Below are positions 1 through 64,000 of a stretch of DNA of 64,000 nucleotides, piece by piece. Made by a program: the position numbers and the translations under genes. Origin of the DNA: Demequina phytophila (GTDB lineage: Bacteria > Actinomycetota > Actinomycetes > Actinomycetales > Demequinaceae); NCBI RefSeq assembly GCF_000971135.1, contig NZ_BBLW01000002.1, forward strand, positions 434,001-498,000, written 5' to 3'. How positions within the stretch are numbered: position 1 is the stretch's first letter; each line of letters starts with the position of its first letter. The notes beneath the pieces are model-generated. The model was given only the letters and a program-made list of their open reading frames with translations, did no database searches and was not told the DNA's origin.

Positions 1-676
1 GCGCGTGCCGCGAGTACACGCTGGCGCCCTCGACACCCAGGAACACGAACACCATCACCAGCATGGTCGCGCGCACCTGCGCGAACAGCGCCACGTCCGA
101 CGGCCCCGCCATGTTCTCCGCGAACACCTGCGGGTCCACGTAGAACAGCGCGATCACGATGAACACGAGGATGGGCACCAGCTTCGCGAGCGTGACGATC
201 CGGTTGATCGCGGCCGCCTCGCGCACCCCTTGACGCACCAGCAGGTAGAAGCCCCACAGCCCTGCGCTCGAGAGCAGCACCGCCAGCACCGTGTCGCCCT
301 CGCCGAGCGCCGGGAACAGCCCTCCCAGCGTGGACATGATGAGCACCCAGAAGGACACGTTGCCCACGCACGTGGTCGCCCAGTAGCCGAACGCGGAGAA
401 GAACCCCAGGTACTCCCCGAAGCCGGCTTTCGCGTATGCGTAGATGCCGGCGTCGAGGTGAGGCTTGCGGTTCGACAGCGCCTGGAACATCAGCGCGAGC
501 GTGAGGGTGCCGATCCCCGCGATGGTCCACGCGATGAGCGCGCCCGACACGCCGGTCGCCTCCGCGAAGCGGCCCGGCAGGGTGAACACGCCGGCGCCCA
601 CCATGGTGCCCACCACCATCGTGGTCATGGTGAGCAGGGAGAGCTTGACGGGCGCGCGCTCGGCGGTCTCGCTCAT
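1..676 (-). CDS. Amino acid permease, APC superfamily (3' part missing)
   Basis: Reading the minus strand from the ATG at 676 gives an open frame that runs off the left edge, so only about the first 225 residues are present. The protein begins MSETAERAPVKLSLLTMTTM and shows hydrophobic segments from residue 12 onward. These include the glycine-rich first helix of APC transporters (VVGTMVGAGVF, about residues 21-31) and a second segment with DAGIYAYAKAGFGEYLGFFS. That pattern matches the basic amino acid/polyamine antiporter branch (arginine:ornithine or lysine type), which exchanges amino acids across the cytoplasmic membrane. The exact substrate cannot be told. The gene is alone in what is visible; the ZIP-like gene upstream reads in the same direction and is separated from it by a 15-bp inverted repeat. 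Confidence 0.8.
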   Translation of the reverse strand, partial: MSETAERAPVKLSLLTMTTMVVGTMVGAGVFTLPGRFAEATGVSGALIAWTIAGIGTLTLALMFQALSNRKPHLDAGIYAYAKAGFGEYLGFFSAFGYWATTCVGNVSFWVLIMSTLGGLFPALGEGDTVLAVLLSSAGLWGFYLLVRQGVREAAAINRIVTLAKLVPILVFIVIALFYVDPQVFAENMAGPSDVALFAQVRATMLVMVFVFLGVEGASVYSRHA

Positions 677-714
677 GCGCCCTCCTCCCGTCCCCTCGAA
701 ACCTAGCAAGTCCA

Positions 715-766
715 GGGACGATGCGCGGGGTGAGGGGTCGCGCGGACGTCGCCCGCGCATCGTCCC
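715..766. repeat. Inverted pair of the CGCATCGTCC element
   Basis: GGGACGATGCGCGGG at 715-729 and its exact reverse complement at 752-766 form a perfect 15-bp inverted repeat with a 22-bp spacer, starting 4 bp beyond the stop of the ZIP-like gene. It could act as a terminator for that gene, but no T-run follows. Both arms are copies of a 10-mer scattered through the native DNA of this window, so it may have another role. Confidence 0.6.
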
Positions 767-770
767 CCCG

Positions 771-1977: not shown

Positions 1978-1990
1978 CCGGGCGACCGCC

Positions 1991-1999
1991 GCATCGTCC
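1991..1999. repeat. Single copy of the CGCATCGTCC element between thioesterase and ligase genes
   Basis: The 10-mer CGCATCGTCC (1990-1999) fills most of the 22-bp gap between two co-oriented genes, just before the ligase stop codon. It belongs to the family of copies described in the findings. Confidence 0.6.
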
Positions 2000-8160: not shown

Positions 8161-10350
8161 CTACTCGTAGATCTCGCCCACGGCGGCACGCGCCACCAAA
8201 GAGGCGGGCGGACGGAACCGCTCGCCGTACCGGTCCGCGAGCTCGTGCGCGCGGGCCACGAAGCCCGGAAGGCCGCCGGGGAACTGGTTGACGTACTGCA
8301 GCACCCCGCCGGTCCACGCGGGGAAGCCGATCCCGAAGATCGACCCGATGTTGGCGTCCGCGACGGACGTCAGCACCCCGTGGTCGAGGCAGTCGATGGT
8401 GTCGAGCGCCTCCGCGAACAGCATCCGGTCCTGCAGGTCCTCGAGCGGCATCTCGACCGAGCCCGACGCGTACCTCTCGCGCAGGCCCGGCCAGATTGCC
8501 GTACGGCGCCCGTCCTCGTCGTAGTCGTAGAAGCCCTGGCCGGCCTTGCGCCCGGGACGCCCGGCCTCGTCGACCATCCAGTCCTCGACGGCCTCCGCGG
8601 GGTGCGCGACCCACGCGCGGCTCTCCGCCACCTGGGCGGTGCGCGTCTCCGTGCGGATCTTCTGAGTGAGGGCGAGCGACAGCTCGTCCACCAGCTGCAG
8701 CGGCCCGGCGGGGTAGCCCGCCTGCAGCGCCGCCTGCTCGACCGACGCGGGCTCGACGCCCTCGCCCACGGCCGCGACCGCCTCGTCGATGAAGCGCCCG
8801 ATCACGCGCGACGTGAAGAAGCCCCGCGCATCGTTCACCACGATCGGCGTCTTGCGGATCTGCAGCACGAAGTCGAACACCTTCGCGAGCACCTCGTCCG
8901 ACGTGCGGCGCCCGCGCACGATCTCCACGAGCGGCATCTTGTCGACGGGGGAGAAGAAGTGGATGCCGATGAAGTCGTCCTCCCGGTGCACGCCCTCCGC
9001 AAGCAGCGAGATCGGCAGCGTCGACGTGTTCGACCCGAGCACCGCGCCCGGCAGCACCACGTCCTGGATCTCCTGGAACACGGCCTGCTTGACAGGCACG
9101 GACTCGAACACGGCCTCGATCACGAAGTCGACGCCGCCGAAGTCGCGCGGGTCGCCCGTAGTGGTGATGCGGTCGAGCAGCTGGGCCGAGCGCTCGGGGG
9201 TGGTCTGGCCGCGGCTCAGCGCCTTCTCCTCGAGCCGGCGCCCGTAGTCCTTGCCGCGCTCGGCCGCCTCGACCGAGACGTCCTTGAGGACCACCTCGAT
9301 GCCGGCCTTCGCCGACACGTAGGCGATCGCGGCGCCCATCATGCCCGCGCCGATCACGCCGACGCGCTTCGCCTGGTAGGTCGGGTATCCGAGCGGCCGG
9401 CTTGCGCCCTTGTTGATGCTCTCGAGGTCGAAGAAGAACGCCTTGATCATGTTCTTCGCGACCTGGGTGTGGGTGAGGTGCACCAGGTAGCGGGTCTCGA
9501 TGGACGATGCGGTGGCGAAGTCCACGTAGGCGCCCTCGACCGCGGCGGCCATGGCGGCACGCGGGGCGGGCAGCGGGGCGCCCTTGAGCTGGCGGCGCAG
9601 CATCGCGGGCATGGCGGCGAGGACCGGTGCGAGGCCGGGGGAGGTGGGGGCGCCGCCGGGGATCCGGAAGCCCTTCTCGTCCCACGGCTTCACCGGCGCC
9701 GGGTTGGCCGCGATCCACGCCTTGGCGCGGTCGCGGATCTCCGCGGCGGGCGCGACGTCGTCGATCAGGCCCGCGGCGAGCGCGCCCTCGGCGGTGAACT
9801 TGGTCGCGGGCAGGATCACGTCCGCGAGCGCCTTCTGCAGGCCCAGCATCCGCACCACGCGGGTGACACCGCCGCCGCCGGGCAGCAGGCCCAGCGAGAC
9901 CTCGGGCAGCCCGAAGCGTGCGCCCTTCGCGTCCGACGCCGCGATGCGGTGGTGGGTCGCGAGCGCGACCTCGAGGCCGCCGCCGAGCGCGGTGCCGGTG
10001 AGCGCGGCGACCACGGGGCGCCCGAGCTGCTCGAGGCGGCGCAGCAGCGCTTTGACGTGGTCGATGTGCGCGGTCTCCTCCGCGGCACGCGACGGGTCCG
10101 CCGCGCGCAGCAGGTTGAGGTCGCCGCCGGCGAACCAGCTCTTCTTCGCGGACGCCAGGATCACGCCGGTGACCTGATCGCGCTCGGCCTCGAGCCGCTC
10201 CACGGTGACCTCGAGCGCGGACACGAAGTGCGCGTTCATGGTGTTGACCGCACTGTCCGGGTCGTCCATGGTGATGGTCACGACGCCGTCGGCGTCCTGC
10301 TCCCAGGCGTAGCCGCGTGCCAGCTCCGCCGTCTCCTCGATGACGCTCAT
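8161..10350 (-). CDS. FadB/FadJ-like enoyl-CoA hydratase/3-hydroxyacyl-CoA dehydrogenase
   Basis: A protein of 729 residues with a crotonase domain in the first third. Its oxyanion-hole segment is GTALGGGLEVALATHHRIA and its glutamate segment is GLPEVSLGLLPGGGG. A Rossmann dehydrogenase domain follows (VGVIGAGMMGAAIAYVS, then GIHFFSPVDKMPLVEIVRG with the catalytic histidine) and then the C-terminal 3-hydroxyacyl-CoA dehydrogenase domains. It hydrates trans-2-enoyl-CoA and oxidises the 3-hydroxy product with NAD+. The ATG at 10350 has AGGGG upstream; a TTG six bases earlier is less likely. It sits 12 bp after the thiolase gene, forming the usual two-subunit beta-oxidation complex pair. Confidence 0.93.
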   Translation of the reverse strand: MSVIEETAELARGYAWEQDADGVVTITMDDPDSAVNTMNAHFVSALEVTVERLEAERDQVTGVILASAKKSWFAGGDLNLLRAADPSRAAEETAHIDHVKALLRRLEQLGRPVVAALTGTALGGGLEVALATHHRIAASDAKGARFGLPEVSLGLLPGGGGVTRVVRMLGLQKALADVILPATKFTAEGALAAGLIDDVAPAAEIRDRAKAWIAANPAPVKPWDEKGFRIPGGAPTSPGLAPVLAAMPAMLRRQLKGAPLPAPRAAMAAAVEGAYVDFATASSIETRYLVHLTHTQVAKNMIKAFFFDLESINKGASRPLGYPTYQAKRVGVIGAGMMGAAIAYVSAKAGIEVVLKDVSVEAAERGKDYGRRLEEKALSRGQTTPERSAQLLDRITTTGDPRDFGGVDFVIEAVFESVPVKQAVFQEIQDVVLPGAVLGSNTSTLPISLLAEGVHREDDFIGIHFFSPVDKMPLVEIVRGRRTSDEVLAKVFDFVLQIRKTPIVVNDARGFFTSRVIGRFIDEAVAAVGEGVEPASVEQAALQAGYPAGPLQLVDELSLALTQKIRTETRTAQVAESRAWVAHPAEAVEDWMVDEAGRPGRKAGQGFYDYDEDGRRTAIWPGLRERYASGSVEMPLEDLQDRMLFAEALDTIDCLDHGVLTSVADANIGSIFGIGFPAWTGGVLQYVNQFPGGLPGFVARAHELADRYGERFRPPASLVARAAVGEIYE

Positions 10351-10362: not shown

Positions 10363-11571
<1,209 letters not shown>

Positions 11572-12941: not shown

Positions 12942-13718
12942 ATGACGCGGGTGGACGATGCGCCGGGCAGGCTGGCAGGCAGGGTCGCCGTGGTGACGGG
13001 CGGGAGCCGGGGGATCGGGCTCGCGATCGCGCGGCGGCTGGCGGACGAGGGCGCCTCGCTGGTGCTCACCGCGCGCGGCGAGGAGGGCCTCGCGGAGGCC
13101 GCTGCAGTCCTTCCCCCGGATCGTGTGCGCACCGTCGCGGGGCGGGCGCAGGACCCCGACCATCAGGCGGAGTCCGTGGCGACGGCGGTGCGCGAGTTCG
13201 GGGGCCTGGACATCCTGGTCGCGAACGCGGGCATCAACCCGGTGTACGGGCCGCTGCTCGGGCTGGAGCACGACGCGGCGCGGAAGGTGCTCGACGTCAA
13301 CGTGCTGGGCACGCTCGGCTGGGTGCAGGCGGCATGCAGGGCGGGCCTGGGGGAGCGGCTCGGCGCGTCGGTGCTCGCGATGTCCTCCGTCACGGGCGCG
13401 GTCCCGTCGCCCGGGATCGGCTGGTACGGCGTGAGCAAGGCCGCGGTCTCGCACCTCACGGTCACGCTCGCCGCCGAGCTCGGCCCGCGCATCCGCGTCA
13501 ACGCCCTCGCGCCCGCCGTGGTGCGCACCCAGTTCGCGCGCGCCCTGTACGAGGGGCGGGAGGAGGAGGTCGCCGCGCGCTATCCCGCGGGCCGTTTGGG
13601 CGAGCCGAGCGACGTCGCGGCCGCCGCGGCCTTCCTGTGCTCCGACGACGCGGGCTGGCTCACCGGCCAGGTGCTCACCCTGGACGGCGGCCTTCGCGCG
13701 GCCGGGGGCGTCGCATGA
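12942..13718 (+). CDS. SDR-family oxidoreductase
   Basis: A protein of 258 residues of the classical short-chain dehydrogenase family. The cofactor motif is VVTGGSRGIGLAIARRLADE, followed by LVANAGINPVYG (NAG motif), the catalytic serine region LAMSSVTGAV, and YGVSKAAVSHL with the Tyr-x-x-x-Lys pair. An LDGGLR end is typical of FabG-like members. It probably oxidises a hydroxyacyl-CoA or a similar alcohol with NAD(P). It starts a tightly packed operon: its stop overlaps the start of the next acyl-CoA dehydrogenase by 4 bp. In the neighbouring context it parallels the SDR of 4-hydroxy-acid pathways, though the substrate is not shown. Confidence 0.88.
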   Translation: MTRVDDAPGRLAGRVAVVTGGSRGIGLAIARRLADEGASLVLTARGEEGLAEAAAVLPPDRVRTVAGRAQDPDHQAESVATAVREFGGLDILVANAGINPVYGPLLGLEHDAARKVLDVNVLGTLGWVQAACRAGLGERLGASVLAMSSVTGAVPSPGIGWYGVSKAAVSHLTVTLAAELGPRIRVNALAPAVVRTQFARALYEGREEEVAARYPAGRLGEPSDVAAAAAFLCSDDAGWLTGQVLTLDGGLRAAGGVA

Positions 13719-41402: not shown

Positions 41403-41566
41403 TCCGCACGCTGCACCACATCGCCCGCCGTGTCGGCGTTGTGCCTCTCGCCAGGGTTCCAGCGGACGCCGGGTCATGCCCCGTGCCTGCCCGCCACCCT
41501 CGAGGCACTGTCAGTGGGTGCCCGTACCGTCGGGCCTCCATTCCTGAACAGATCTGGAGGCGTCTC

Positions 41567-41812: not shown

Positions 41813-41907
41813 CCGCGCAACCCCGCCCAGCGGGAGTCGCCGGTAGTTCACTACTGTCGAGGGTGACCGGGTAGCACACGAACGGCCACGTAGGAGAGGT
41901 GAACGCG

Positions 41908-43182: not shown

Positions 43183-43218
43183 ACACCGCAGACGTGTAAC
43201 GAAAAGCCTGCAAACTCG

Positions 43219-44433: not shown

Positions 44434-44444
44434 GGTCGTGAGGC

Positions 44445-48742: not shown

Positions 48743-50307
48743 TGTGCGCCTTCGAGGTCGGCGACGATGGCGTCGATGGCGGTGCGGAGCTCGGCCTGGC
48801 GGGCGACGATGCGGGCGATCTCGGCGTTGAGCTCGGCGATGTCGACGACCTCGCGGGTGTCCTCGGCCTCGACGTAGGAGGAGACGGCGATGTTGTAGTC
48901 GTTGGCGGCGATCGCATCGTTCGCGACGACCTTGGAGAAGTGGTCGACGTCCTCGCGCGCGGTGAACGCGTCAAGAATGGCCGCGCGGTGTGCCTCGTCG
49001 AGCTTGTTCTTGTTGCCCGAGCGGACGAACTGCGCGGACGCGTCGATGAAGAGGACGGCGTTGTCGGTCTTGGACTTCTTGAGCACGATGATGCAGGTCG
49101 CGATGCCGGTGCCGAAGAACAGGTCCGGGGGAAGCTGGATGACGGCGTCGACGTAGTTGTTGTCAACGAGGTACTGGCGGATCTTCTTCTCCGCGCCCCC
49201 GCGATACAAAACCCCAGGAAACTCGACGATCGCGGCTGTGCCGTCGACGGCGAGCCACGACAGCATGTGCATCGTGAAGGCGAGGTCGGCCTTGGACTTC
49301 GGTGCCAGGACGCCGGCGGGGGAGTAGCGCGGATCGTTGATCAGCAGGGGGTTCGCATCCCCGTCCCACTTGATGGAGTAGGGCGGGTTGGACACGATCG
49401 CCTCGAACGGTTCGTCGTCCCAGTGAGCCGGGTCGATGAGGGTGTCGCCATGAGCCAAGTTGAACTTCTCGTAGTTCACGTCGTGCAGGAACATGTTGAT
49501 CCGCGCGAGGTTGTAGGTGGTCAGGTTGATCTCCTGACCGTAGAAGCCCTGGCGGACGTTGTCCTTGCCCAGCACCTTCGCGAACTTCAGCAGCAGCGAG
49601 CCCGACCCGCAGGCGGGGTCGTAGACCTTGTTCACGCTCGTCTTGCCGACCACCGTGATGCGGGCCAGCAACTCGGAGACCTCCTGCGGCGTGTAGTACT
49701 CGCCGCCGGACTTACCCGCGTTGGCGGCGTACATCTGCATCAAGTACTCGTACGCGTCGCCGAAGAGGTCGATCGCGTTGTCCTGGAAGTCACCCAACGG
49801 CAGGTCGCCGATCGCGTCCAACAGCTTGGCGAGCTTCTCGTTGCGCTTCGACACGGTCGGGCCGAGCTTCGAGCTGTTCACGTCGAGATCGTCAAAGAGG
49901 CCCTTGAGGTCGTCCTCGCTGTCGGTGCCTGTCGCGGAGCCTTCGATGTGGGCGAACACCCGCTCGAGCGTCTCGTTGAGGTTCTCATCGCCCGCGGCAT
50001 GCTTGCGGACGTTGACGAACAGCTCCGAGGGCAGGATGTAGAAGCCCTTCTCGGCGACGGTCTCGGCGCGACCGAACTCGGCATGCTCGTCGGGAAGTTC
50101 CGCGTAGTCGAAGTCGGGGCTGCCGGCGTCGTGTTCGCCCTTGTTGATATAGGCGGTGAGGTTCTCCGACACGTACCGGAAGAACAGCATGCCGAGCACG
50201 TACGTCTTGAAGTCCCATCCGTCCACTGACCCGCGCAGGTCGTTGGCGATGCGCCAGATGGTCTTGTGCAGCTCAGCGCGTTGCGCCTGGCTCGTCGTCG
50301 GGGTCAC
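48739..50307 (-). CDS. hsdM: Type I restriction-modification methyltransferase subunit
   Basis: A protein of 522 residues from the GTG at 50307, with AGGAG upstream (the longer frame was rejected as it lacks homology). It carries the N-terminal HsdM helical domain ([20 protein letters not shown]), [18 protein letters not shown], motif [16 protein letters not shown] (about 230-244), and the N6-adenine motif IV NPPY (307-310). It methylates adenine within the site defined by HsdS. It is the first gene of the minus-strand operon hsdM-hsdS-hsdR-PIN, divergent from the HNH-like gene. Confidence 0.96.
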
Positions 50308-50465
50308 CGTCGTCTCCTGCTCATGCGAAGCCGGACACGTTCGTCCGGGGGTCTGCGACCACCGTAGTCGCGCCCGGTAACACACGGGCGACGCCACGCG
50401 CCAACCGGCGATGAACGTTCGTTTGCTCTGGTAATGGGCACACCGTTGCCGTACTCTCGGTCGCC

Positions 50466-51350
50466 ATGGGCGATCGGTTTCCTGGCGAACCCTGCGTGTT
50501 GTGCGCAGGCGTAAACCATGGCGTCGGCGAGCACGTGTGGCCTGCGTGGTTCCTTGGGGAGTTCACTCAGGAGGGGCCGTTCACTCCGCACAAGAACGAT
50601 GTGCCGCTGGTACGACGGGACGGTTCGGCCGCGACGGCGCCGTCGCTGCAGGGACTCCACGTCCCGATGTGCGAAGCGTGCAACAACGCACTCAGCAAGT
50701 TCATCGAGTTGCCTGCGAAGGCGGTCGTCAGGCGTCTGTTGTCGGTGACCGGCAACTCGCCATTGCCCGACCTCTCGCCAGCGGAGATCGCCGGAGTCGT
50801 CCCCTGGCTCCTGAAGGTCGGACTCCTGATGCGCCATCCGCTCGCTCAACACGATGAGCCTGTCATGCGTCCTCACCAGGACAGCGGCGCGCTCGCGCCG
50901 TTCTACCCGGGTTGGACGTCCTGGATGAACCAGGGCATCGCGCCACCAGCCGACTTCTCGGTGTTCGTGTCGCGAAGGTCCCTCGTCCGTGAGGCCGACT
51001 TCGATGGTGCGCGGCAAGGCATCGTGGTGCCACATGTCATCGTTGACGGCGTAGACCTCCGTTTCATGACCGCGGGGTTCGGGTTCCGAGGACTCGACGT
51101 GACGATCGTCTGGCACCCCGGGTGGGCCATTGAGCACCCACTCGTCACGGCTGGGCGTGCGGCGCGCCTTTGGCCATCGGTTATGGGGCCGCAGCTCTCA
51201 CAGCTTCCTGTCGTGCACCCTGGCGAGTTCCGGTTCATCGATGCAGGCGGACCTATGTGCGCGAGCTCTGCACAGTTCAAGGCCATGACGGTTTTGCCGT
51301 TGAGCGTAGACCGCGACCCCGTCGCGGCGTTCTTCGGGATGGGAACCTGA
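50466..51350 (+). CDS. HNH-like zinc-binding protein of unknown function
   Basis: A protein of 294 residues with an N-terminal treble-clef pattern: C10-x-x-C13 ([10 protein letters not shown]), then Glu22-His23 ([13 protein letters not shown]), then C69-x-x-C72-N ([20 protein letters not shown]). This order is typical for degenerate HNH endonuclease-like domains. The rest (100-294) is unrecognised. It is divergent from hsdM with 158 bp between starts. As an HNH-type protein in a defence region, it may be a nuclease; this is inferred from the motif. Confidence 0.65.
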
Positions 51351-51868
51351 CGCCCAACAAGTCGCGCGCACCCGGCGCGGCCGATGGGCTGTGCCGGCCC
51401 GCCGTGATGGTTCGGCGCCCGCGCAATCGGGGACATCCCGGGGACATGACGACAGAAACGGCTGTGATCCAGCGCGATGTCGCTTCGTCGTCGCATCGTT
51501 CGAAGTCCCAGGTAAACGATCAGTACTGAGGCTTGCTGTGAGCGCTCGTCGTCAGGCCGAAACGCGCCCGACTCCAACAAGGGGTCGCAGGTTCACGGCC
51601 ATCGGAAGTCGCCGCGGGAACTGAGAACCCACTTGGAAGAAGGATGCCCGGAGAGCTCCGCCGAGACGACCCCCACGTGCGCGGGGAGACCTCTGGTTTG
51701 GCAGCTGCGAGGCGCTCGAACCGGGGAACCGGTCAACTCACGTTCGGCGGGACCGTGTGCGGCCGCCGCCGGGGCATGGCGGGGAACCCCAGACCGGGTT
51801 CGTTGGTTGCCGCGCGACGCGAACGGGGAACCCGAAGGTACCGAGTCGGAGGGTCGAGCGCCGCGCAC
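51351..51868. other. Gene-free gap; holds a solitary type I-E CRISPR-repeat-like sequence
   Basis: No convincing gene was seen here (open frames run antisense or lack ribosome sites). At 51663-51691 a 29-bp sequence with CCCC-ACGTGCG-CGGGG symmetry looks like a type I-E CRISPR repeat on the minus strand, but no second copy follows at repeat spacing and no cas gene is in the window. The octamer GGGGAACC occurs at 51723, 51781 and 51825. Confidence 0.35.
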
Positions 51869-53278
51869 CTACTCGTACTCGTGGTCGTAGGTCATCTCGC
51901 GAAGGCGGATGCCGCGTACGCCCTTCGCCTTCCTACCGTCCAGCCCCTGGCCCTGCGCTTCTGCGATGACGCCAGCAGCCATGAGTGACGCGATGGACTC
52001 GGTACTCCGCCACCGGGACATGAACGTGCGCACGTTCATTCTCTGGTGGCCCTGGGGTTCGAGCCACTTGTTGAAGCGCTCAGCGAGTCGCGCGCTCGCT
52101 ACGAAGTTGCCCTCGTCGAGCTCGATCTCTTCTTCGAAGAACTGGCCGATCAGGTCAGCGTCGTCGCGCCACGAAGCGGTTGCGAGGCGGACCTCTTCGG
52201 GCACCTCACGAAAGGCCTCGGGGTCGTTGTAGTAGCGAACCGCGCCCTCTATGAGCCAGGCGAGAACCGCGGGGTCTCGGATCTGGAGCGCCGTCTTGAG
52301 TGTGTCGTCGCGCGGGCGCTCGTTGGTACCCGCTGTCGGGACGGAAACGTAGCGGAAGGGGAAGGGGATCATCACGAGACGACGCCACGTACCGGCGTCG
52401 GTCTCCGCGATCTGGGGCATGTAGTTGGTCGTGACGATGAGCGCATGGGTGGCGTCGAACTGGACGGAGTCGCGCCGGATCAGTCGCGCGCTGATCCGGG
52501 ACGTGCCAACCGTGGCCTTGAGCCGCTGCACGTTGAGGTAGCGGCCTTCCGGAAGCTCCTCCAAGATCCCGAGCCGCAGGCCCCGCAGTTCCATGAGTTC
52601 GGTGGGATGGTCGCCGGGGCTTGCGAGTAGCACGCGATGGGGAAGGGCCTTCGCGTAGTCGCCGAGCGCCGTCTGCAGTCCGGTGACAAAGAGCGACTTG
52701 CCGTTCTCGCCGCCTCCTTGCAGGAAAAGGATGCGGTCGTCCGGTGGCGTTTCACCGGTGATCGCCTGCCCCAGCCGAAGTTGCATCCACTGCAGAGTCT
52801 GCTCGGTCATCGCAGCAGTGGCGGCCGCCCATGCGGGCGACGTCGCGCCCGGCTCGAATGGAGCCGAGGCGCACAGCAGGAACCGGTCCGACGGTTGATG
52901 CTGCCGAAGCTCCCCGGTGCGCAGGTCTACGACTCCGTTGGGGCAGTTGAGATCGGCTGGGTTCTGATCGAAGTCTCCGAGTTCGACGGTGAGCGCGCCC
53001 GCGAGCGGGCGCATCACGCTCTCCGCTTTCCTCGTCTGTCGGAGCAGTTTCACGCTTCTTGGCGAAGGCCGTGGTAGCGCGTCGTCCTGCGCAAGTTCGG
53101 CGGCGATCTCTTCGAGGCGGCGCATGACGACATGCAGCATCTGTCGGTCGTTGATGGGCTTCCACACCCCGCGTTTGCCGTGGCGTAGCCAACCCAACGC
53201 GCCTGTGTACGCGTAGTGGTCGCGCATCTCCGACGCGACGCGCCTGACGAGTTCAGCGTCGTCGGTGGGGTCAGTCAC
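51869..53278 (-). CDS. SF3/P4-type DNA helicase of plasmid/phage replication
   Basis: A protein of 469 residues from a GTG at 53278. It contains a D5-type N-terminal domain (CPNGVVDLRTGELRQHQPSD) and the SF3 helicase core with Walker A GGGENGKS (188-195), Walker B-like LGILEELPEGRYLN, and ATHALIVTTNYMPQIAETD (motif C). C-terminal parts include GQFFEEEIELDEGNFVASAR. It unwinds the origin during replication of the excised element. It overlaps the prim-pol gene by 8 bp, and together they form a primase-helicase unit. Confidence 0.9.
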   Translation of the reverse strand: MTDPTDDAELVRRVASEMRDHYAYTGALGWLRHGKRGVWKPINDRQMLHVVMRRLEEIAAELAQDDALPRPSPRSVKLLRQTRKAESVMRPLAGALTVELGDFDQNPADLNCPNGVVDLRTGELRQHQPSDRFLLCASAPFEPGATSPAWAAATAAMTEQTLQWMQLRLGQAITGETPPDDRILFLQGGGENGKSLFVTGLQTALGDYAKALPHRVLLASPGDHPTELMELRGLRLGILEELPEGRYLNVQRLKATVGTSRISARLIRRDSVQFDATHALIVTTNYMPQIAETDAGTWRRLVMIPFPFRYVSVPTAGTNERPRDDTLKTALQIRDPAVLAWLIEGAVRYYNDPEAFREVPEEVRLATASWRDDADLIGQFFEEEIELDEGNFVASARLAERFNKWLEPQGHQRMNVRTFMSRWRSTESIASLMAAGVIAEAQGQGLDGRKAKGVRGIRLREMTYDHEYE

Positions 53279-54128
53279 GTGTGCCTCCAAACTTGCGGAT
53301 GGCACCCTCGATGCCGTCTCGCCACTGAGTTCTTGGGTCGCCCGAACGGTGTTCGGATGAGTGCCATCGCTCGCTGATGACGCTGAGCGCCTCGGGGACC
53401 CCGCCGTGACCCTCGGCAGCCAGCTGAACCAGGTGGGCCTGTGCCCTTAGCATCCAGTCGTGGCCCGAGAACGCGGTCGCCGGCACGGCAGACACGTACC
53501 GGACAACCTCGGGCGACGGGGTTGACCCCGCGTGCTGTGCCAACCAGTCGCCGATGCCGGCGCCATAAGCTGCGCTGACGCCGGTTGGCGCCGGGCCGTG
53601 CAGCGCGGCCGTGAGGCGTGCCTGGACTTCGGCAACAGGTGGCAGTTCGTACATGGCGACGACGTAGCCCCCGCGGCCCTTTCGGTCGACGCCCGGGTAG
53701 AGGGCGTTTCTGCTGGAGACGCTCCCACGAAACCAGCAGTGCACGCCCCGCCCGGACAGAGATCTGCGCTGGGGGGCAGAGGCGGGAAGGTGGACCCCTG
53801 CGTCGACAAGGGACGCGTAGCCGTTCGGCTTCCCCGGGTGACGATCGATGTCGATGCAGACGCGTTCCACGGGCCCCGGTGCGATAGCGACGACTGCATC
53901 GGGGTAGTCGAGCGCCCACCAGGCCGTAATAGTCTCGATGTCGGTGCTGGCCCGCTCTTCCCATTGGGTGAAGCCTCGGTAGGGACGCTTGGCGCTATCG
54001 CCCGCGCTCAGAGGCTGCACCGGGAACACGGGCCATCCGCCGCGGGCGTGCCGAAGCGCGTACTCGAGCGCGGATCGCGGCGGCGCGAGCTGCTGTTCGC
54101 CGCCCGGCTGCGGCACAGTGGTGCTCAC
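53271..54128 (-). CDS. Bifunctional DNA primase/polymerase (prim-pol domain)
   Basis: A protein of 285 residues from a GTG at 54128 whose first bases overlap the stop of a small upstream frame. The prim-pol domain covers about 20-180: ALEYALRHARGGWPVFPVQP, catalytic Asp93 and Asp95 in VCIDIDRHPGKPNG, and SGRGVHCWFRG with the histidine. It synthesises RNA/DNA primers for element replication. It overlaps the SF3 helicase gene. Confidence 0.88.
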   Translation of the reverse strand: MSTTVPQPGGEQQLAPPRSALEYALRHARGGWPVFPVQPLSAGDSAKRPYRGFTQWEERASTDIETITAWWALDYPDAVVAIAPGPVERVCIDIDRHPGKPNGYASLVDAGVHLPASAPQRRSLSGRGVHCWFRGSVSSRNALYPGVDRKGRGGYVVAMYELPPVAEVQARLTAALHGPAPTGVSAAYGAGIGDWLAQHAGSTPSPEVVRYVSAVPATAFSGHDWMLRAQAHLVQLAAEGHGGVPEALSVISERWHSSEHRSGDPRTQWRDGIEGAIRKFGGTRD

Positions 54129-54274
54129 CCCACACCACCCAGTGCTGACCCTGCTGAGCGCGTGCGGAAGGCGCGCGGGTGGTTGCGCGGATCGGGGTTG
54201 CCCTGATCGAGATGGTGCCGGGTCGCGCGCCGCGAGGTGTTCTGGGCGCGCGACAACGCGGTCTGACAGTGCAT
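54125..54274 (-). CDS. Small protein (49 residues) coupled to the prim-pol gene
   Basis: An ATG at 54274 has AGGAG eight bases upstream, and its stop TGA overlaps the prim-pol GTG (54126-54128), the usual mark of translational coupling. The product begins MHCQTALSRAQNTSRRATRH and is basic and histidine/arginine-rich. It may be a DNA-binding or replication accessory protein, or mainly serve to couple translation. No family was recognised. Confidence 0.6.
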   Translation of the reverse strand: MHCQTALSRAQNTSRRATRHHLDQGNPDPRNHPRAFRTRSAGSALGGVG

Positions 54275-54333
54275 GAGGGGATCTCCTCTTGGTGCGAAGG
54301 CCCGGGCGCCTGGCGCTCGGGGTGCGGGGGCGC

Positions 54334-54570
54334 TCAGCGACCGCTGTGGTCGCGCTCGCCCTCGAGCCAACTGCGAACGTCAGCAAGGTCGTACGCCACG
54401 CGTCGACCGATCGTGAACGACCGCGGTCCGCCAGTTCCCTGGCTACGCCACGAGCGCAGTGTGTTCGTGGGGATGCCGGTCTGCGCGGCCAGCTCCTCCA
54501 GCCACAGGTAGGTGCGCACCTCGTCAATGACGGGGGACCTCGTGGACCGGGACGACTGCTCTGCCTTCAT
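54334..54570 (-). CDS. Excisionase-like helix-turn-helix protein
   Basis: A protein of 78 residues from the ATG at 54570 with GGAGG upstream. A MerR/excisionase-type HTH spans YLWLEELAAQTGIPTNTLRS and WRSQGTGGPRSFTIGRRVAY followed by DLADVRSWLEGE. Such small DNA-binding proteins assist excision (Xis-like) or regulate replication genes. It is divergent from the XRE regulator gene, as first gene of the replication operon. Confidence 0.85.
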   Translation of the reverse strand: MKAEQSSRSTRSPVIDEVRTYLWLEELAAQTGIPTNTLRSWRSQGTGGPRSFTIGRRVAYDLADVRSWLEGERDHSGR

Positions 54571-54653
54571 GTGAACCTCCAGCGCTTGATGCGCATCGCT
54601 CATGACAGCGCATCCTCTGCATGCATCACCATAGCGCCCTCCGCCACGATACT

Positions 54654-54696
54654 CAACAGGACTCATCTGTTGCGATGAGCAGCATGCATGTACGAT
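54654..54696 (+). promoter_or_regulatory. Operator and promoter of the XRE-integrase operon
   Basis: CAACAG (54654-54659), 7 bp, CTGTTG (54667-54672) is a perfect inverted repeat. TTGCGA (54670-54675) and TACGAT (54691-54696) fit -35/-10 elements with a 15-bp spacer. The -10 is only 7 bp before the ATG at 54704, so the message probably has no leader. The XRE protein may bind the inverted repeat. Confidence 0.55.
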
Positions 54697-54703
54697 CCCA
54701 ACT

Positions 54704-55222
54704 ATGAACAAGATCGAACAGGATCGACGCCGGTCCCGGCGTGTGGCTCTTGGCAGGGCGGTGGCGGAGCTTCGTCAGGCTCAGGGGATGACTCAACGGA
54801 CGTTGGCGGAAGCGATGTCTGCCGTCATCGGTGAAGAGTTCGCGCAGTCAAAGATCAGCCGGATCGAGTCGGGTGTGCGTCCAGTCGAAGTCGCGGAGCT
54901 GCCGACACTCGCGCAAGCCCTCGGCGTGGATGCCGCCGTGCTGTGGCAGGCGGCGACAGGACGTGGTCTGGAAGATGAGGCCTACTTGGCGGCGCTTGAA
55001 CTTTCGGCGGTGGTGGAGCGCGATCGCGAAGAGTTGTCGACGACCTTGGCGCGCATGGAGGAGAACACGAAGCGCCTCGGTTCTTACCTCGACTATTGCC
55101 TGGTGTTGGTCGATAAGTCGGATGACGCTTCCTCAAAGCGGTTCGAACTTCCCGCCGCCGTGCACGAGGCGTTCGCCCGTGCGCAAGCCACTGTCGCGCA
55201 TGTGAAGAGCGGTGAACCGTGA
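54704..55222 (+). CDS. XRE-family regulator of the element
   Basis: A protein of 172 residues starting MNKIEQDRRRSRRVALGRAV; no clear ribosome site is seen, so a leaderless start is likely. The HTH_XRE domain spans about residues 15-75: ELRQAQGMTQRTLAEAMSAV ... QSKISRIESGVRPVEVAELP. A C-terminal coiled-coil-like region (ELSTTLARMEENTKRLGSYL) may mediate dimers. Its stop overlaps the GTG of the integrase gene, so regulator and integrase are coupled. It is probably the control switch of the element. Confidence 0.88.
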   Translation: MNKIEQDRRRSRRVALGRAVAELRQAQGMTQRTLAEAMSAVIGEEFAQSKISRIESGVRPVEVAELPTLAQALGVDAAVLWQAATGRGLEDEAYLAALELSAVVERDREELSTTLARMEENTKRLGSYLDYCLVLVDKSDDASSKRFELPAAVHEAFARAQATVAHVKSGEP

Positions 55223-56364
55223 GCACGCATCCCGGCATCACCGACCTGGGCGACGGCAAGTATCGGGTGCGTGTCTACGACCCACGTACGCGCGGGTACC
55301 TCCAGCGGCGCGTGACGGGCGTTCGCGAAGCCCGCCGTGTGCAAGCGGTTCTCAAGGCGGAAGTTCAGCGCAGTGACGTCCTGGTCCGGAGTGGTCGGGC
55401 GCCGACGGTCAAGGACTTTGCAGAGGCCTGGCGGGTCGAGCTCCGCCACGCCCCGCTGACTGCCGTCAACGTGGAAGCGACCTTGCGCACGCACATCTAC
55501 CCGGCGCTCGGTCGGACGCGCGTTACCGATGTCACGCACAACCACGCGCTGAGGTTCGTCAGGGTGCTCTCCGAGTCGGACCTCGCGGTGGCAACACAGG
55601 CGAAGGTGGACACCCAAGCGCGCCACCTCTTCGATGCGGTCGTCGCTGAGGGGTGGCGGGAGGCATCACCGTTCGCGAGGGTGCCTCGCATCAGAGCGCC
55701 CCGGTCTGCCCTGCGTCGCCAGGGCGAGTACATCCCGTCGCCAACCGAAGCCATGTCGCTCATCGGCGCTGCACGCGCGGTCGGGCGCGATGACGTCGCC
55801 CTGTTCATGCTTCTCGCGCTCGGCGCGGGGCTCCGCGGCTCCGAGGTGGTCGGCCTCGACGCAGACGCGTTGGCGGGAGGCACGGTGGTGGTGCGCCAGC
55901 AGCTGCTACGTGCAGACGGGCGGTTCTACCTGTCCGCACCCAAGACAAGCGCGGGGGAGCGCACGGTGCCACTCGCCCCGATCGTTCTCGACGCTGTGAT
56001 GGCGTATCGGGCGACGCACGCGCCGCTCGCCGCCGCCTTGCCGGTCATGGACCGCGGACGGGAGCGGGAGGTTCGAGAGACCTCGCTTGTCTTGAGCGGA
56101 CCCCACGGCGGGCCCTGGCAGGAGACCGTCGCTGCACGCCAAGTGGCGGCCTTCGCGGGACGTGCGGACTTCCCCGGTCGCGTCACTGCGCACACGTTCC
56201 GCAAGACCTTCACGACCATCCTCGGCGACGCCGGCGTCCCACTGCGGGTGATCGACGCCGTGACCGGACACGAGTCGTCTGGACTTACCCTCGGCACCTA
56301 CACGGCCGTCACGCCCGCTGGCCTCGAACGCGCGCGTGACGCAGTACAAGACGCCCTGGCATGA
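55219..56364 (+). CDS. Tyrosine integrase of the element
   Basis: A protein of 381 residues from the GTG at 55219. It has an arm-binding N-terminus (GDGKYRVRVYDPRTRGYLQR), a core-binding SAM-like domain (about 65-150) and the catalytic domain with Arg206 (ALGAGLRGSEVVGL), Lys242 (SAPKTSAGERTV), His325/Arg328 (AHTFRKTFTTIL), His351 (TGHESSGLTLG) and Tyr361 (GTYTAV). It lies just inside the right att copy, so it most likely catalyses integration into the glnA 3' end. A terminator hairpin follows. Confidence 0.95.
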   Translation: MSTHPGITDLGDGKYRVRVYDPRTRGYLQRRVTGVREARRVQAVLKAEVQRSDVLVRSGRAPTVKDFAEAWRVELRHAPLTAVNVEATLRTHIYPALGRTRVTDVTHNHALRFVRVLSESDLAVATQAKVDTQARHLFDAVVAEGWREASPFARVPRIRAPRSALRRQGEYIPSPTEAMSLIGAARAVGRDDVALFMLLALGAGLRGSEVVGLDADALAGGTVVVRQQLLRADGRFYLSAPKTSAGERTVPLAPIVLDAVMAYRATHAPLAAALPVMDRGREREVRETSLVLSGPHGGPWQETVAARQVAAFAGRADFPGRVTAHTFRKTFTTILGDAGVPLRVIDAVTGHESSGLTLGTYTAVTPAGLERARDAVQDALA

Positions 56365-56368
56365 GAAG

Positions 56369-56411
56369 AGCCCCCGACCAGACATGTCCAAAACATGTCC
56401 GGTCGGGGGCT
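56369..56411. terminator. Bidirectional terminator after the integrase gene and glnA
   Basis: AGCCCCCGACC (56369-56379) pairs with GGTCGGGGGCT (56401-56411), with ACATGTCC repeats in the loop (56382-56401). It serves the integrase on the plus strand and replaces glnA's lost terminator on the minus strand. The loop repeats resemble those at 31952-31973 and may be integrase arm sites. Confidence 0.8.
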
Positions 56412-56432
56412 TGATCGCTGATTTATCAGCGA

Positions 56433-56466
56433 CTACGGCTTAGCAGTCGTAGTAGAGCTCGAACTC
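56433..56466. other. Right attachment site (att) at the glnA 3' end
   Basis: A 34-bp copy of the sequence at 31827-31860, differing at 56440 (T instead of C). It covers the last codons (EFELYYDC) and stop of the intact glnA; the base change makes the stop TAA instead of the TAG preserved at the left end. Because the repeat includes the gene's own end, insertion leaves glnA complete. Confidence 0.9.
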
Positions 56467-57873
56467 GTGCGGGTGCGGACGGAAGCGCAGCGGGTCGATC
56501 TCCTGCGTGCGCTTGAGGTCGATCCACATCTCGATGAGGTCCTCGGTGAACACGCCACCCTCGGTGAGGAAGCCGTGGTCCGCCTCGAGGGCGTCGAGCA
56601 CCGCGGGGAGCGAGGCCGGCACCTGGGCGATCTGGGCGTGCTCCTCGGGGGGCAGCTCGTAGAGGTCCTTGTCGACCGGAGCCGGGGGCTCGATGCGGTT
56701 CTTGATGCCGTCGATGCCGGCCATCAGGAGCGCCGCGAACGCGAGGTACGGGTTCGACGACGGGTCCGGCGCGCGGAACTCGATGCGCTTGGCCTTCGGG
56801 TTCGAGCCGGTGATCGGGATGCGGACCGCGGCGGAGCGGTTACGCGCCGAGTACACCAGGTTGACCGGGGCCTCGTAGCCCGGCACGAGGCGGTGGTACG
56901 AGTTGACGGTCGGGTTCGTGAACGCGAGCAGCGACGGCGCGTGCTTGAGGATGCCGCCGATGTACCAGCGGGCCATGTCCGAGAGGCCGCCGTAGCCGGA
57001 CTCGTCGTAGAAGAGCGGCTCGCCGTTCTTCCAGATCGACTGGTGGACGTGCATGCCCGAGCCGTTGTCGCCGAAGAGCGGCTTCGGCATGAAGGTCACG
57101 GTCTTGCCCGCGCGCCACGCGACGTTCTTGACGACGTACTTGAACTTCTGGATGTCGTCGCCCGCGTGCAGCAGCGTGTTGAAGCGGTAGTTGATCTCCT
57201 GCTGGCCGGCGGTGCCCACCTCGTGGTGCGCGCGCTCGAGCTCGAGGCCGACCTCGCCGAGGACCTTGCACATCTCGTCGCGGAGGTCCGCGAACTGGTC
57301 GCCGGGGGAGACGGGGAAGTAGCCGCCCTTGTAGCGCGTCTTGTAGCCGCGGTTCGGGGTGCCGTCCTCCTCGTACTCGACGCCGGTGTTCCACCAGGCC
57401 TCGGACGAGTCGATGTGGTAGTAGCCCTCGTGCTGGTTCGTGTCGAAGCGAACCGAGTCGAAGATGAAGAACTCCGCCTCGGGGGCGAAGAAGGCGGTGT
57501 CACCGATGCCGGTGGACTTCAGGTACTCGACGGCCTTCGCCGCGATGTTGCGGGGGTCGCGCGAGTAGGGCTCGTTCGTGAACGGGTCCACGATCGAGAA
57601 GTTGATGACGAGCGTCTTCGCCTTGCGGAACGGGTCGACGAACGCGGTGGCGACATCCGGCAGCAGCTTCATGTCGGACTCGTTGATCGCCTGGAAGCCG
57701 CGGATCGACGAACCGTCGAACATCGCGCCCTCGGTGAACACGTCCTCGGTGAACTGCGACGCGGGGATGTTGAAGTGCTGCATCTGACCCGGAAGGTCGC
57801 AGAAGCGGATGTCGACGAACTCGACGCCCTCGTTCTTCACATACTCGATCGCCTCGTTGGCGTCTTTGAACAT
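56440..57873 (-). CDS. glnA: Glutamine synthetase type I
   Basis: A protein of 477 residues, GSI-beta type: [37 protein letters not shown] (metal-binding Glu pair), [17 protein letters not shown], and the tail HEFELYYDC. The adenylylation tyrosine is present in [10 protein letters not shown], so activity is probably controlled by GlnE. It makes glutamine from glutamate, ammonia and ATP. A GlnR-type box lies upstream. The 3' end is the integration target of the mobile element and is reconstituted exactly, so the enzyme should be functional. Confidence 0.97.
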
Positions 57874-58031: not shown

Positions 58032-58069
58032 GGGACGATGCGCGGGCTGGGGGCCGCGCGCATCGTCCC
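58032..58069. repeat. Inverted pair of the CGCATCGTCC element between divergent genes
   Basis: GGGACGATGCGCG (58032-58044) and CGCGCATCGTCCC (58057-58069) form a perfect 13-bp inverted repeat. It lies between divergent genes (glnA and the RDD gene), so it is not a simple terminator. It belongs to the 10-mer family described in the findings. Confidence 0.65.
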
Positions 58070-59972: not shown

Positions 59973-60066
59973 GATGCGCACAGTCTAGTCGCAGGCCCGG
60001 ACCCCTCCGGGACCCCCGCGGCCGGCGCATCGTCCCCCCGCGGTGCCCCGCGGAAGGACGGCCGTG

Positions 60067-61083: not shown

Positions 61084-61772
61084 ACGGGCTCCTTCGTGGG
61101 GAGGGGGGAGTCTGCGCCGGTGGGCGCCTGGGCCCACCTTACGTCGGCGAGGGCGGCTTCCAGGAATCGCACGGTCGGGTCGACCGCCTCGGCGAGGGGC
61201 ACGTCGCGTCCCAGCTCGGCGGCGAGGGACGTGACGTCCGCGTCGGAGATGCCGCACGGGACGATGCGCTGGTACCAGTTCAGGTCGGGCGTGCAGTTGA
61301 GCGCGATGCCGTGCATGGTGACGCCCTTGGCCACGCGCACGCCGATCGCGCAGATCTTCCGCTCACGCCGCGTGTCCGTCGCGGGCAGCCACACGCCCGA
61401 GCGGCCCTCCACCCGGATCGTGTCGAGCCCGAAGGTCGCGCACACGTCCATGACGGCCTGCTCGAGCTGCCGGACGTACCGCACCACGTCGACGGGCTCC
61501 GCGAGCCGGACGATCGGGTAGGCCACCAGCTGGCCCGGGCCGTGCCACGTGATGCGCCCGCCGCGGTCGACGTCGATCACCGGGGAACCATCGACGGGAC
61601 GGTCCCAGGTCGCGGTGCGCTTGCCCGCGGTGTAGACGGGCTCGTGCTCGACCAGGAGGAGGGTGTCCTCGGCCTCGCCGGCGACCACGGCGGCGTGAAC
61701 CTCCCGCTGGAGGTCCCACGCCTCCTGGTAGGGCACCAGGCGGGTGCCGAGGTCGAGGGGGACGATGCGCAT
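61080..61772 (-). CDS. lipB: Octanoyltransferase
   Basis: A protein of 230 residues starting [20 protein letters not shown]. The LipB signature is [20 protein letters not shown]. The catalytic Lys139 ([11 protein letters not shown]) and Cys173 ([10 protein letters not shown]) are present. It transfers octanoyl from ACP to lipoyl domains, providing the LipA substrate. It begins at the ATG at 61772, divergent from the MMPL gene, and forms an operon with lipA. Confidence 0.96.
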
Positions 61773-61836
61773 CACAGGATGGTAACTCTTGACCCGGTCG
61801 GGAATAGGCGTGCCTGGTTCCGGCATCATTCTCCAC

Positions 61837-64000
61837 ATGAAGCTTCGATCCTGGGCACGTCCCCTGCTCATCATCCTGGTGATCTTCGGTTGGCTCGCCG
61901 TCGGCGGCGCCGGCGGACAGACGTTCGGCAAGCTCTCGGAGGTGCAGGAGAACGACTCCGCCGCCTTCCTGCCGTCGAACGCCGAGTCGACCGAGGCCGC
62001 CGACCTGCACGCCGAGTTCGCCCCCACCGACTCCGTCCCGGCGCTCCTCGCCGTCGACGGCGGCGCGGCGGACGTCGCGACCGTCCAGGCCTTCGTCGAC
62101 TCGGTTCTGACGGAGGCGCTCGAGGGCGACCCCGAGGGCCGCACCGTCGGCGACATCACCCTCACCGGCCCGCAGGGCCAGGGCCCCACCGCCATCCCGT
62201 CCGAGGATGGCGAGGCGATCCTCGTGTCCTTCGCGGTGGACGCCGAGGTGTTCGACGAGATGGCGGGCGAGGAGTCCGTGGGCCAGCTCTACGTCGACAC
62301 GCTCCGCACCGCCTGGGAGCAGGCCGACACCGGTCTGACGGGCTATGTCACCGGACCCGCGGGCCTGGTCGCGGACCTCGTCGAGGCGTTCGGCGGCATC
62401 GACGGCATCCTGCTCCTGGTCGCGCTGGGCGTGGTGCTGCTCATCCTGCTGATCGTCTACCGCAGCCCCGTGCTGCCGTTCCTGGTGCTCGCGACCTCCA
62501 TGCTCGCGCTCACCGGCGCGATCATCGCCGTGTACGCCCTCGCGAGCGCGGACGTCATCACGCTCAACGGCCAGAGCCAGGGCATCATGTTCATCCTCGT
62601 GGTCGGTGCGACCACCGACTACTCGCTGCTCCTGGTCGCCCGCTACCGCGAGGAGCTGCTGCGGATCCAGTCGCCCTACGCGGCTCTTGGTCACGCGTGG
62701 AAGCGCTCGCTCGAGCCCATCGCCGCCTCGGCCGGCACCGTGATCCTGGGCCTCCTGGTGCTTCTGCTGAGCGACCTCAAGTCCAACGCGGCGCTCGGCC
62801 CGGCCGGCGCGATCGGCATCGCGGCGTCCTTTCTCGCGGCGCTCACCCTCCTGCCCGCCCTGCTCCTCATCGGCGGCAAGCACGCCCGCGGCGTGTTCTG
62901 GCCGGCGATGCCGCGCTACCGCGGCGACGACGCCCACGAAGCGGAGGAGACCATCGAGGCCGTCGAGGCGCGCGCCGGCGTGTGGGGCCGCGTGTCGCGG
63001 TTCGTCGACTCGCGTCCGCGCGCGGTGTGGGCCGCGGCGGCGCTCGGACTCGTGATCCTCGCGGCGTTCGTGCCGACCTTCAAGTCCGGAGGCCTGGGCG
63101 AGCGCGACATCTTCACCGCCGAGACCGAGTCCGTCACGGGCTTCGAGTTCCTCGAGCAGCACTTCGAGGCCGGCGCGACGTCGCCGATCCGCATCATCAC
63201 CGCGGAGGGCTCGGCACAGGACGTGCTCGCGGCCGTCGAGGGTGTCGACGGCGTCACGCAGGCGTACCTGCTCACGCCCGCGGTGGCCGCCGGTGCCCCG
63301 GCGGGGGCGGTGCCCGAGGACCCGATCGTGGTCGACGGCCTCGTCGAGATCGACGCCATCACGCAGGTCTCGGCGTCCTCGGCCGAGGCCCTCGACATCG
63401 TCGCGGACGTCCGCGACGAGGCGCACGCGGTCGACTCCGAGGCACTGGTGGGTGGTCAGGCCGCCGAGTCGCTGGACACCCGCCTCACCAGCGAGCGAGA
63501 CCTGAAGATCATCCTGCCGACCATCCTCGCGGTGATCCTGGTAGTCCTCATGCTGCTGCTGCGCTCGATCCTGGCGCCGGTGCTCATCATCGTGGCGAAC
63601 GTTCTGAGCTTCGCGGCGACCATGGGTCTCGCGGCGATCGTGTTCAACCACGTGCTCGACTTCCCCGGAACGGACCCGTCCGTGCCGCTGCTCGGGTTCG
63701 TGTTCCTCGTCGCGCTCGGTGTCGACTACTCGATCTTCCTCATGTCGCGCGCGCGGGAGGAGTCACTGCAGCACGGCGCCCGCGAAGGCATCAGGAGGGC
63801 GCTGGCGGTGACCGGCGGCGTGATCACGTCCGCGGGCATCGTGCTCGCCGCGACGTTCGCGGCGCTGGGCGTCATCCCGCTGATCTTCCTCGCGCAGATC
63901 GCGTTCCTCGTCGCGGCGGGCGTGCTCATCGACACGTTCGTGGTCCGGTCCCTGCTGGTCCCGGGCCTCATCGCGGACATCGGCCGCCGTGCATGGTGGC
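61837..64000 (+). CDS. MMPL/RND-family transporter (3' part missing)
   Basis: From the ATG at 61837 the frame is open to the right edge, about 721 residues. The start is [20 protein letters not shown] (first membrane helix), a first extracytoplasmic domain follows (about 30-180), then a block of helices with [20 protein letters not shown] (proton-relay Asp and family motif) and, after a second loop, [19 protein letters not shown] (the same motif repeated). That is the MMPL two-fold layout used for lipid or drug export. It is divergent from lipB; TTGACC at about 61788 may be a -35 element. Substrate not determinable. Confidence 0.9.

Follow-up and report, generated by a model that had tools for sequence, protein, structure and literature searches.

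Why does a single asymmetric 10-mer recur so often along the chromosome of an actinobacterium? The question is raised by a 64-kb stretch of Demequina phytophila DNA (the window; positions 434001-498000 of C11, which like C10 is one of the 12 contigs of this 2.98-Mb genome), in which the word CGCATCGTCC has 22 exact matches on the two strands. Far fewer would be expected by chance. In 100 dinucleotide shuffles the mean was 0.78 copies and the maximum 3, and 0.66 are expected under an order-3 Markov model fitted to the window. We argue here that Demequina probably evolved a DNA uptake sequence independently, with this word as its core.

An earlier, sequence-only reading of the window had placed the chance expectation under one copy per 64 kb, in agreement with both values. 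All 21 of the copies that it listed are present, and its count was incomplete only in overlooking a 22nd at 9502-9511 on the minus strand. It was also right that two sets of copies (716/756 and 58033/58059) form inverted pairs, and that copies lie both in genes and between them, as gene prediction on the window and on 400 kb confirms.

The excess extends to the whole genome, where CGCATCGTCC occurs 553 times in forward and 548 times in reverse orientation (1101 in all), compared with 5 + 2 = 7 occurrences of the reversed word used as a control. The comparison with a Markov background proposed in the sequence-only reading also upholds the signal: in 432 kb, an order-4 model predicts 8.7 copies of the 10-mer and 173 are present, a 20-fold excess. 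The 9-mer GCATCGTCC exceeds its expectation 11-fold in the same DNA (233 copies versus 20.6) and numbers about 1538 genome-wide (1739 matches to GCATCGKCC minus 201 of GCATCGGCC), or one per 1.9 kb. One-base variants of the 10-mer lie near background at positions 2-7 in these 432 kb, and are raised at both ends and where G replaces T at position 8. In the surroundings of 415 copies from 800 kb, with the first core base numbered 0, the upstream flank favors C at -8 (60%), G at -7 (68%), and C at -5 (75%), -4 (78%) and -1 (70%), and the downstream flank favors C at +9 and +11 (60% each). Sharing ends about 10 bp outside the word. Because the flanks are weakly fixed, the unit is best described as about 20 bp long, comprising the 9-bp core and an upstream block (CG.CC...GCATCGKCC).

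Genes were predicted in 400 kb with a simple, purpose-written gene caller. Among 213 copies in this DNA, 162 are genic, 50 are intergenic and 1 spans a border, and the intergenic density (14.3 per 10 kb) is 3.2 times that in coding DNA (4.4). Genic copies number 75 and 87 in the two orientations, versus 13.3 and 7.9 after 20 rounds of synonymous codon shuffling. For the frame GCA-TCG-TCC alone, 49 copies are observed versus 0.6 after such shuffling. Selection or drive acts on the DNA itself, overriding codon choice, and not on the protein. Counted per 100 kb, the copies in 1.2 Mb of two species (partial chromosomes with no origin assigned) show no clear strand bias, and apart from the orientation effect described below, the spacing of copies is indistinguishable from random (Kolmogorov-Smirnov p 0.38, 400 kb).

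The spelling of the word differs among species. In a search of 44 Demequina genomes, we distinguished a T form, with GCATCGTCC as its core, from a G form, GCATCGGCC. The T 10-mer has 711-1564 copies in 15 of the 44 genomes and 10-235 in the other 29, and its reversed control has 1-11. Counts of k-mers in samples of 20-43 kb from 23 of the 29 low-T genomes brought GCATCGGCC to light, and whole-genome counts then put 17 of the full 29 at 659-2018 copies, with controls ranging from 34 (G036) to 142 (G024). The leading spelling is accordingly GCATCGTCC in 15 of 44 genomes, GCATCGGCC in 17, and GCGTCGGGC in one (G037), whose top word CCACAGCGTCGGGC, with 18 sites in 80 kb, consists of GCGTCGGGC plus CC at the equal upstream spacing. 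The upstream CC is clear in the G-form genomes G025 and G031 and weaker in small samples from G029, G005 and G016, and was not seen in a small sample from G002. D. pelophila (G018) has both spellings (927 T 10-mers and 664 G 9-mers), which possibly marks a dialect in transition. In this it resembles the two-dialect Neisseriaceae genome described in passages of an earlier report (PMC3630211).

Twelve genomes (G004, G012, G013, G022, G026, G032, G033, G034, G036, G037, G039 and G043) fall under both of our cut-offs, set at 350 T 10-mers and 650 G 9-mers. Among them, D. sediminis (G022) employs the T core, with 18 copies in a 40-kb sample and 235 10-mers in all, and G032, G013 and G012 have 584, 472 and 409 G 9-mers, or 6 to 11 times their respective controls. 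Samples of 42-83 kb revealed a threefold excess of GCGTCGGC in G034, an excess of TCGGCATC-type words of doubtful relation to the main word in G026, and no related strong word in G004, G012 or G043. Computed with rounded genome sizes, the rate of GCATCGKCC is 382-822 per Mb in 21 of 23 Demequina rows, the exceptions being G034 and G004, and it is at most about 240 per Mb in 274 other genomes of the order. The highest outside rates occur in one family (f20; genera g24, g54, g78 and others), where the ratio to the reversed control is about 2 to 10 and one genome (G278) reaches about 240 per Mb. Three genomes from the other two genera of the family to which Demequina belongs have 4-29 copies of the 10-mer.

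A tree of ComEC from 31 of the 44 species (30 fetched loci and the D. phytophila genome) served as a single-gene proxy of the species tree, with weak support for its main fork among low-copy rows. The T form occupies 9 of 9 members of one clade and a separate pair (G020 and G028) amid low-copy species, and the G form occupies 10 of 10 members of another clade and three other rows. Only 5 changes of label are needed on this tree, versus a mean of 14.3 with shuffled labels. Dialect follows descent. In an alignment of a 20-kb pilus region from six species, a 9-mer of T or G form appears in one row or more at 30 columns, a number that includes chance copies. At 19 of these the six rows align without gaps and substitutions are the only differences; at the other 11, one row or more is gapped within or next to the stretch, in some cases where a locus ends. 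At one aligned site, three species carry the T spelling and two carry the G spelling. Judged by PilC, and among the best 80 of 292 relatives, the closest named genome to that of D. phytophila is D. silvatica NBRC 109395 (94% identity).

Some copies stand in inverted pairs. Opposite copies less than 100 bp apart are 1.95-fold more frequent than random in D. phytophila and 4.2-fold more frequent in D. silvatica. Three pairs that were folded gave energies of -37 to -42 kcal/mol, with z-scores of -3.8 to -10.5, and such pairs are predicted to form strong hairpins. Uptake-signal pairs of this kind serve as terminators in Haemophilus influenzae, according to passages of a published account (PMC7811141).

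The genome of D. phytophila encodes machinery that could use such a signal. A type IV pilus operon, adjoining putative shikimate-pathway genes, codes for PilB-, PilT-, PilC- and PilM-type proteins and a prepilin peptidase; PilN and PilO, which have no Pfam match, were assigned from position and length. The genes for ComEA and ComEC are adjacent, and DprA is present. Across the genus, PF00482 is found in 44 of 44 genomes, with a strong PilC-type match in 43 (G036, which is 85% complete, has only weaker ones). ComEC is found in 43 of 44, the miss again being G036, and DprA in all 44.

All of the sequence-level features of the DNA uptake sequence (DUS) and uptake signal sequence (USS) class for which we tested are present. 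The word is a roughly 10-base sequence that occurs far above chance, equally on both strands, under selection at the DNA level. Its dialects keep the inner core and fit the phylogeny, as judged from a single gene tree that covers 31 of the 44 species. Some copies are paired as predicted hairpins, the host has genes for a type IV pilus, ComEA/ComEC and DprA, and the word is not enriched in foreign-looking DNA (one island with 0 copies, described below). We favor an uptake site because the dialects follow the ComEC tree, because of the hairpin pairs and DNA-level selection, and because the pilus, ComEA/ComEC and DprA genes are in place. The sequence-only reading had likened the word to three classes of site. 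Uptake is the one favored here; HIP1 does not suit a non-palindromic word, and a strand-biased replication or nucleoid role is unsupported, no clear strand bias having been seen in the 1.2 Mb covered.

If the word is an uptake sequence, a type IV pilus receptor would bind double-stranded DNA that carries the signal of about 20 bp, and this binding would favor the import of same-species DNA via ComEA/ComEC. The imported DNA would be recombined through DprA/RecA, and biased import together with recombination could spread each new copy by molecular drive. Copies would thus build up through substitutions, whether genic or intergenic, and on either strand. The spelling would be expected to shift when the receptor changes, and the word to be missing from DNA that came by other routes. 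What the sequences themselves show is the abundance of the word, DNA-level selection, the dialects and their agreement with a gene tree, the predicted hairpin pairs and the machinery genes; binding, uptake and drive, and with them the function, are inferred.

Several points weigh against an uptake function. The machinery is as common in motif-poor species, and therefore permits this interpretation and does not prove it. No compared pilin tracks the dialect, and the PilMNO/minor-pilin module varies inside one dialect. The motif-free island is weak evidence, because lower GC alone goes with fewer copies. The standard uptake model gives no reason to expect the avoidance between copies of the same orientation that is described below. 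We know of no uptake or transformation experiment in Demequina, and a search of the open-access literature found no paper on natural competence in the genus.

Two candidate determinants of the dialect were rejected. The first, a lone type IV pilin encoded outside the operon, was considered as the sole ComP-like determinant. Its homologues do not track the dialect: close ones were not found in the high-copy genomes G006, G014 and G042, and one with 62% identity is present in low-copy G043. The second is the minor-pilin/PilMNO module. In D. salsinemoris (G020, T form) this module is closer to that of D. phytophila than to those of the low-copy genomes G004 and G026; the sister species G028, also of T form, is without the type found in G020, and the T clade has both types. 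When the G020 locus (L176) was set against L102, L202 and L278, its PilD-PilM-PilN-PilO and minor-pilin part was like that of the window species, and PilB, PilT and PilC were unremarkable. Such similarity suggests that the PilD-PilM-PilN-PilO/minor-pilin module may have been exchanged horizontally.

The arrangement of copies follows a rule that was first noticed in C11 and then confirmed on fresh data from C10 and D. silvatica. In 400 kb of C11, neighbors less than 1 kb apart are opposite in 63 of 80 cases, and those at least 2 kb apart in 38 of 73. The corresponding values are 55 of 76 (p 1.2e-4) and 43 of 80 in C10, and in D. silvatica, where the effect is stronger, 65 of 73 and 33 of 74. 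At distances of 100-1250 bp, same-orientation pairs occur at 0.54 (C11), 0.49 (C10) and 0.25 (D. silvatica) of the random frequency, and opposite pairs at 1.12, 1.06 and 1.04. In these two species, copies that share an orientation avoid one another up to a distance of about 1.2 kb. The rule is present inside single genes (42 of 57), and is therefore more than a terminator effect. In the window itself, 6 of 9 close neighbors are opposite, and the pair at 61259 and 61760 is an exception to the avoidance. Same-orientation pairs at 100-1250 bp in C10 and C11 are unevenly divided, into 45 ++ and 19 --.

Neither G020 (16 of 30 neighbors opposite within 1 kb) nor G031 (20 of 37) showed the rule, and nor did twelve pooled G species (61 of 105). 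Samples with few pairs gave 8 of 13 in six other Demequina loci and 6 of 6 in G022. When only CC-bearing sites are counted, opposite neighbors make up 8 of 10 in G031, 12 of 19 in the G species, 38 of 50 in D. phytophila and 33 of 37 in D. silvatica. The species that did not show the rule suggest that it is a property of certain lineages, or that more data are needed. No description of such a rule was found among the titles from a search aimed at it or in the passages on Haemophilus and Neisseria signals that were available.

Simple directional-import models were set aside: under them, one kind of opposite pair should outnumber the other, and the two are about balanced (90 +- versus 104 -+ at 100-1250 bp, combining the D. 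phytophila 9-mer and the D. silvatica 10-mer). We conjecture that strand-wise redundancy of the Chi kind is the simplest account of the rule; an alternative conjecture on the side of uptake is that equally oriented signals interfere on one imported fragment. It is also possible, and we suggest it only tentatively, that the word is a polarity-dependent uptake sequence, each copy serving one strand or import orientation over about 1.2 kb and leaving opposite copies free. The strand or polarity of import could then be read from the genome alone.

An unlikely alternative to an uptake sequence is a Chi-like recombination signal, read on one strand by a RecBCD/AddAB-type enzyme, which would require copies spaced along either strand and for which a second one nearby on the same strand would be redundant. 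This would account simply for same-orientation avoidance over about 1.2 kb with opposite copies independent, and it suits a non-palindromic word that is abundant in native DNA and absent from the island. Chi sites are asymmetric and abundant, but the known ones are shorter than a 9-base core plus flanks. RecC (PF04257) was found in 0 of 44 genomes, in a search whose control was positive only in E. coli among 14 and which did not cover AddAB/AdnAB. The strand bias of Chi is not apparent per 100 kb in these partial chromosomes, and a Chi-like signal would not be expected to have dialects and low counts inside one genus, hairpin pairs, or an intergenic excess.

We consider it quite improbable that the word is the site of an intracellular chromosome-organizing or replication protein that needs copies on both strands. 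Such a protein could explain the genome-wide spread, the absence from the island and the orientation rule, but the word is non-palindromic and has no clear strand bias, its spacing is otherwise random-like, and several congeners have few copies. A HIP1-like iterated word tied to DNA methylation or mismatch repair is very unlikely: the word is abundant, both genic and intergenic, and lineage-specific, but HIP1 is a palindromic octamer, and this word differs from its own reverse complement and changes its spelling between relatives. A short mobile repeat copied round the genome, similar to repetitive extragenic palindromes or bacterial interspersed mosaic elements, can be dismissed almost entirely, since occasional close inverted pairs and the 11 gapped columns of the pilus alignment are largely outweighed by the predominance of copies in predicted genes, the 19 of 30 columns that differ by substitutions only, and flanks that are not shared past about 10 bp.

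The sequence-only reading had found the word missing from a 24.6-kb island in the window, and an exact-match search likewise finds zero copies between 31.83 and 56.47 kb, so that its contrast between native and mobile DNA stands. The genome-wide rate would give nine 10-mers there, and the probability of finding none is 1.1e-4. The composition of the island itself predicts 0.28 copies, and the island therefore lacks enrichment rather than showing active avoidance. Motif density in 5-kb bins is positively correlated with GC (Spearman 0.36). These data are compatible with an island too recent to have gained the word. The motif-free gap (31769-58032) is wider than the island as first delimited and includes a glutamine synthetase gene (56440-57873) that may be native. 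In addition to the genes listed in the table, the island encodes DUF932 and DUF4192. In D. silvatica, a comparable stretch of about 23.7 kb, also low in GC, has just two copies, which lie 19 bp apart in mid-stretch.

Table. Copies of CGCATCGTCC and features of the motif-free island, in window coordinates
Feature	Position	Strand	Evidence
Copy, left arm of inverted pair 716/756	716..725	-	exact match, folding
Copy, right arm of inverted pair	756..765	+	exact match; hairpin -39.2 kcal/mol, z -3.8
Copy, intergenic (predicted genes)	1990..1999	+	exact match
Copy overlooked in the sequence-only reading, within predicted gene	9502..9511	-	exact match
Copy, within predicted gene	11032..11041	+	exact match
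Copy close to start of short-chain dehydrogenase-type gene	12953..12962	-	exact match
Copy, within predicted gene	14665..14674	+	exact match
Copy, within predicted gene	17774..17783	-	exact match
Copy, in same predicted gene as 17774, opposite orientation	18206..18215	+	exact match
Copy, within predicted gene	20111..20120	+	exact match
Copy, within predicted gene	23497..23506	-	exact match
Copy, within predicted gene	24797..24806	+	exact match
Copy, intergenic	25785..25794	+	exact match
Copy, intergenic	27398..27407	+	exact match
Copy, intergenic	29555..29564	+	exact match
Copy, within predicted gene	29848..29857	-	exact match
Copy, intergenic, final one ahead of island	31759..31768	+	exact match
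Island without the word, GC ~0.66 versus ~0.72 outside	31830..56470	.	limits from the sequence-only reading
Type I restriction-modification HsdR/S/M side by side, in island	44445-50397	-	domain evidence
Prim-Pol and D5-type protein, in island	51869-54527		domain evidence
Copy, left arm of inverted pair	58033..58042	-	exact match, folding
Copy, right arm of inverted pair	58059..58068	+	exact match; hairpin -37.1 kcal/mol, z -6.0
Copy, intergenic	60026..60035	+	exact match
Copy, within predicted gene	61259..61268	-	exact match
Copy near start of the gene holding 61259, equal orientation, 501 bp away	61760..61769	-	exact match

Other over-represented words were encountered in actinobacteria. The palindrome ATCGCGATC occurs 12 times versus 0.4 expected in 20 kb of Cellulomonas biazotea (L188) and is also over-represented in L183, L211 and L213, and CGCGATCGCG occurs 24 times versus 4.5 expected in the Demequina genome G004. 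Both are HIP1-like words. The word AACGTCCCC of Kineococcus xinjiangensis (L218, G320), with 154 partly clustered copies in 4.6 Mb, was rejected as a related case and is a separate repeat of that species; among the copies listed, the clusters show spacings of about 30-80 bp and inverted pairs. In Cryobacterium (L222, L225, L231, L232, L235, L244, L245, L247 and L286), counts of CGGATGCC in eight pilus loci show an enrichment of 4- to 7-fold in 6 and of 1.4- and 2.4-fold in the others, in varied contexts, and one independent stretch has 9 copies versus 2.3 expected. Because the related CGGCATCC reaches 4-fold in loci of other genera, this signal is only a weak lead.

The Demequina signal is real, strong and, as far as our literature search goes, unreported; among the open-access titles retrieved, none announces a motif of this kind in Actinomycetota. 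To our knowledge, uptake self-recognition tags have been described so far only in two Gram-negative families. If the word is an uptake sequence, it would be a third, unrelated case, and sequence-tagged uptake would evolve repeatedly, including in cells without an outer membrane. It would also be a pointer to type IV pilus-based competence in Gram-positive bacteria; a 2019 review states, in the passages available, that a role of type IV pili in competence was known only from Gram-negatives (PMC6370729). A genus of many species would become available for tracing the coevolution of receptor and motif, and environmental type strains would be opened to genetics. Should the orientation rule prove more widespread, it would constrain the working of such signals in a new, quantitative way.

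The word can be compared with several known classes of genomic signal. Like Chi, it is asymmetric and abundant, and strand-wise redundancy would suit the orientation rule; unlike Chi, it has no clear strand bias, no RecC was found in the 44 genomes, the motif is longer, and there are dialects within the genus. Like cyanobacterial HIP1, it is an iterated species-signature word of native DNA. However, HIP1 (GCGATCGC) is a palindrome that passages of one study tie to methyltransferases (PMC4390886), and the Demequina word is not palindromic. The USS of Pasteurellaceae has an unrelated core and an AT-rich flank that lies downstream, whereas the Demequina flank is C/G-rich and mostly upstream, in a Gram-positive host. 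The DUS of Neisseriaceae, whose receptor in Neisseria is the minor pilin ComP, is unrelated in sequence and belongs to another phylum. The Demequina word is found in monoderm cells and is known from genomes alone, and in two genomes it shows a same-orientation avoidance that also sets it apart. In the passages available, the DUS is described as a 10-mer with 943-5918 copies in the listed genomes, with dialects and with one two-dialect genome (PMC3630211), and its inverted repeats are said to act as terminators and its dialects to follow phylogeny (PMC12616744). By these partial accounts, the Demequina word is like the DUS in being a high-copy 10-mer with inverted pairs, a two-dialect genome, and dialects that follow phylogeny.

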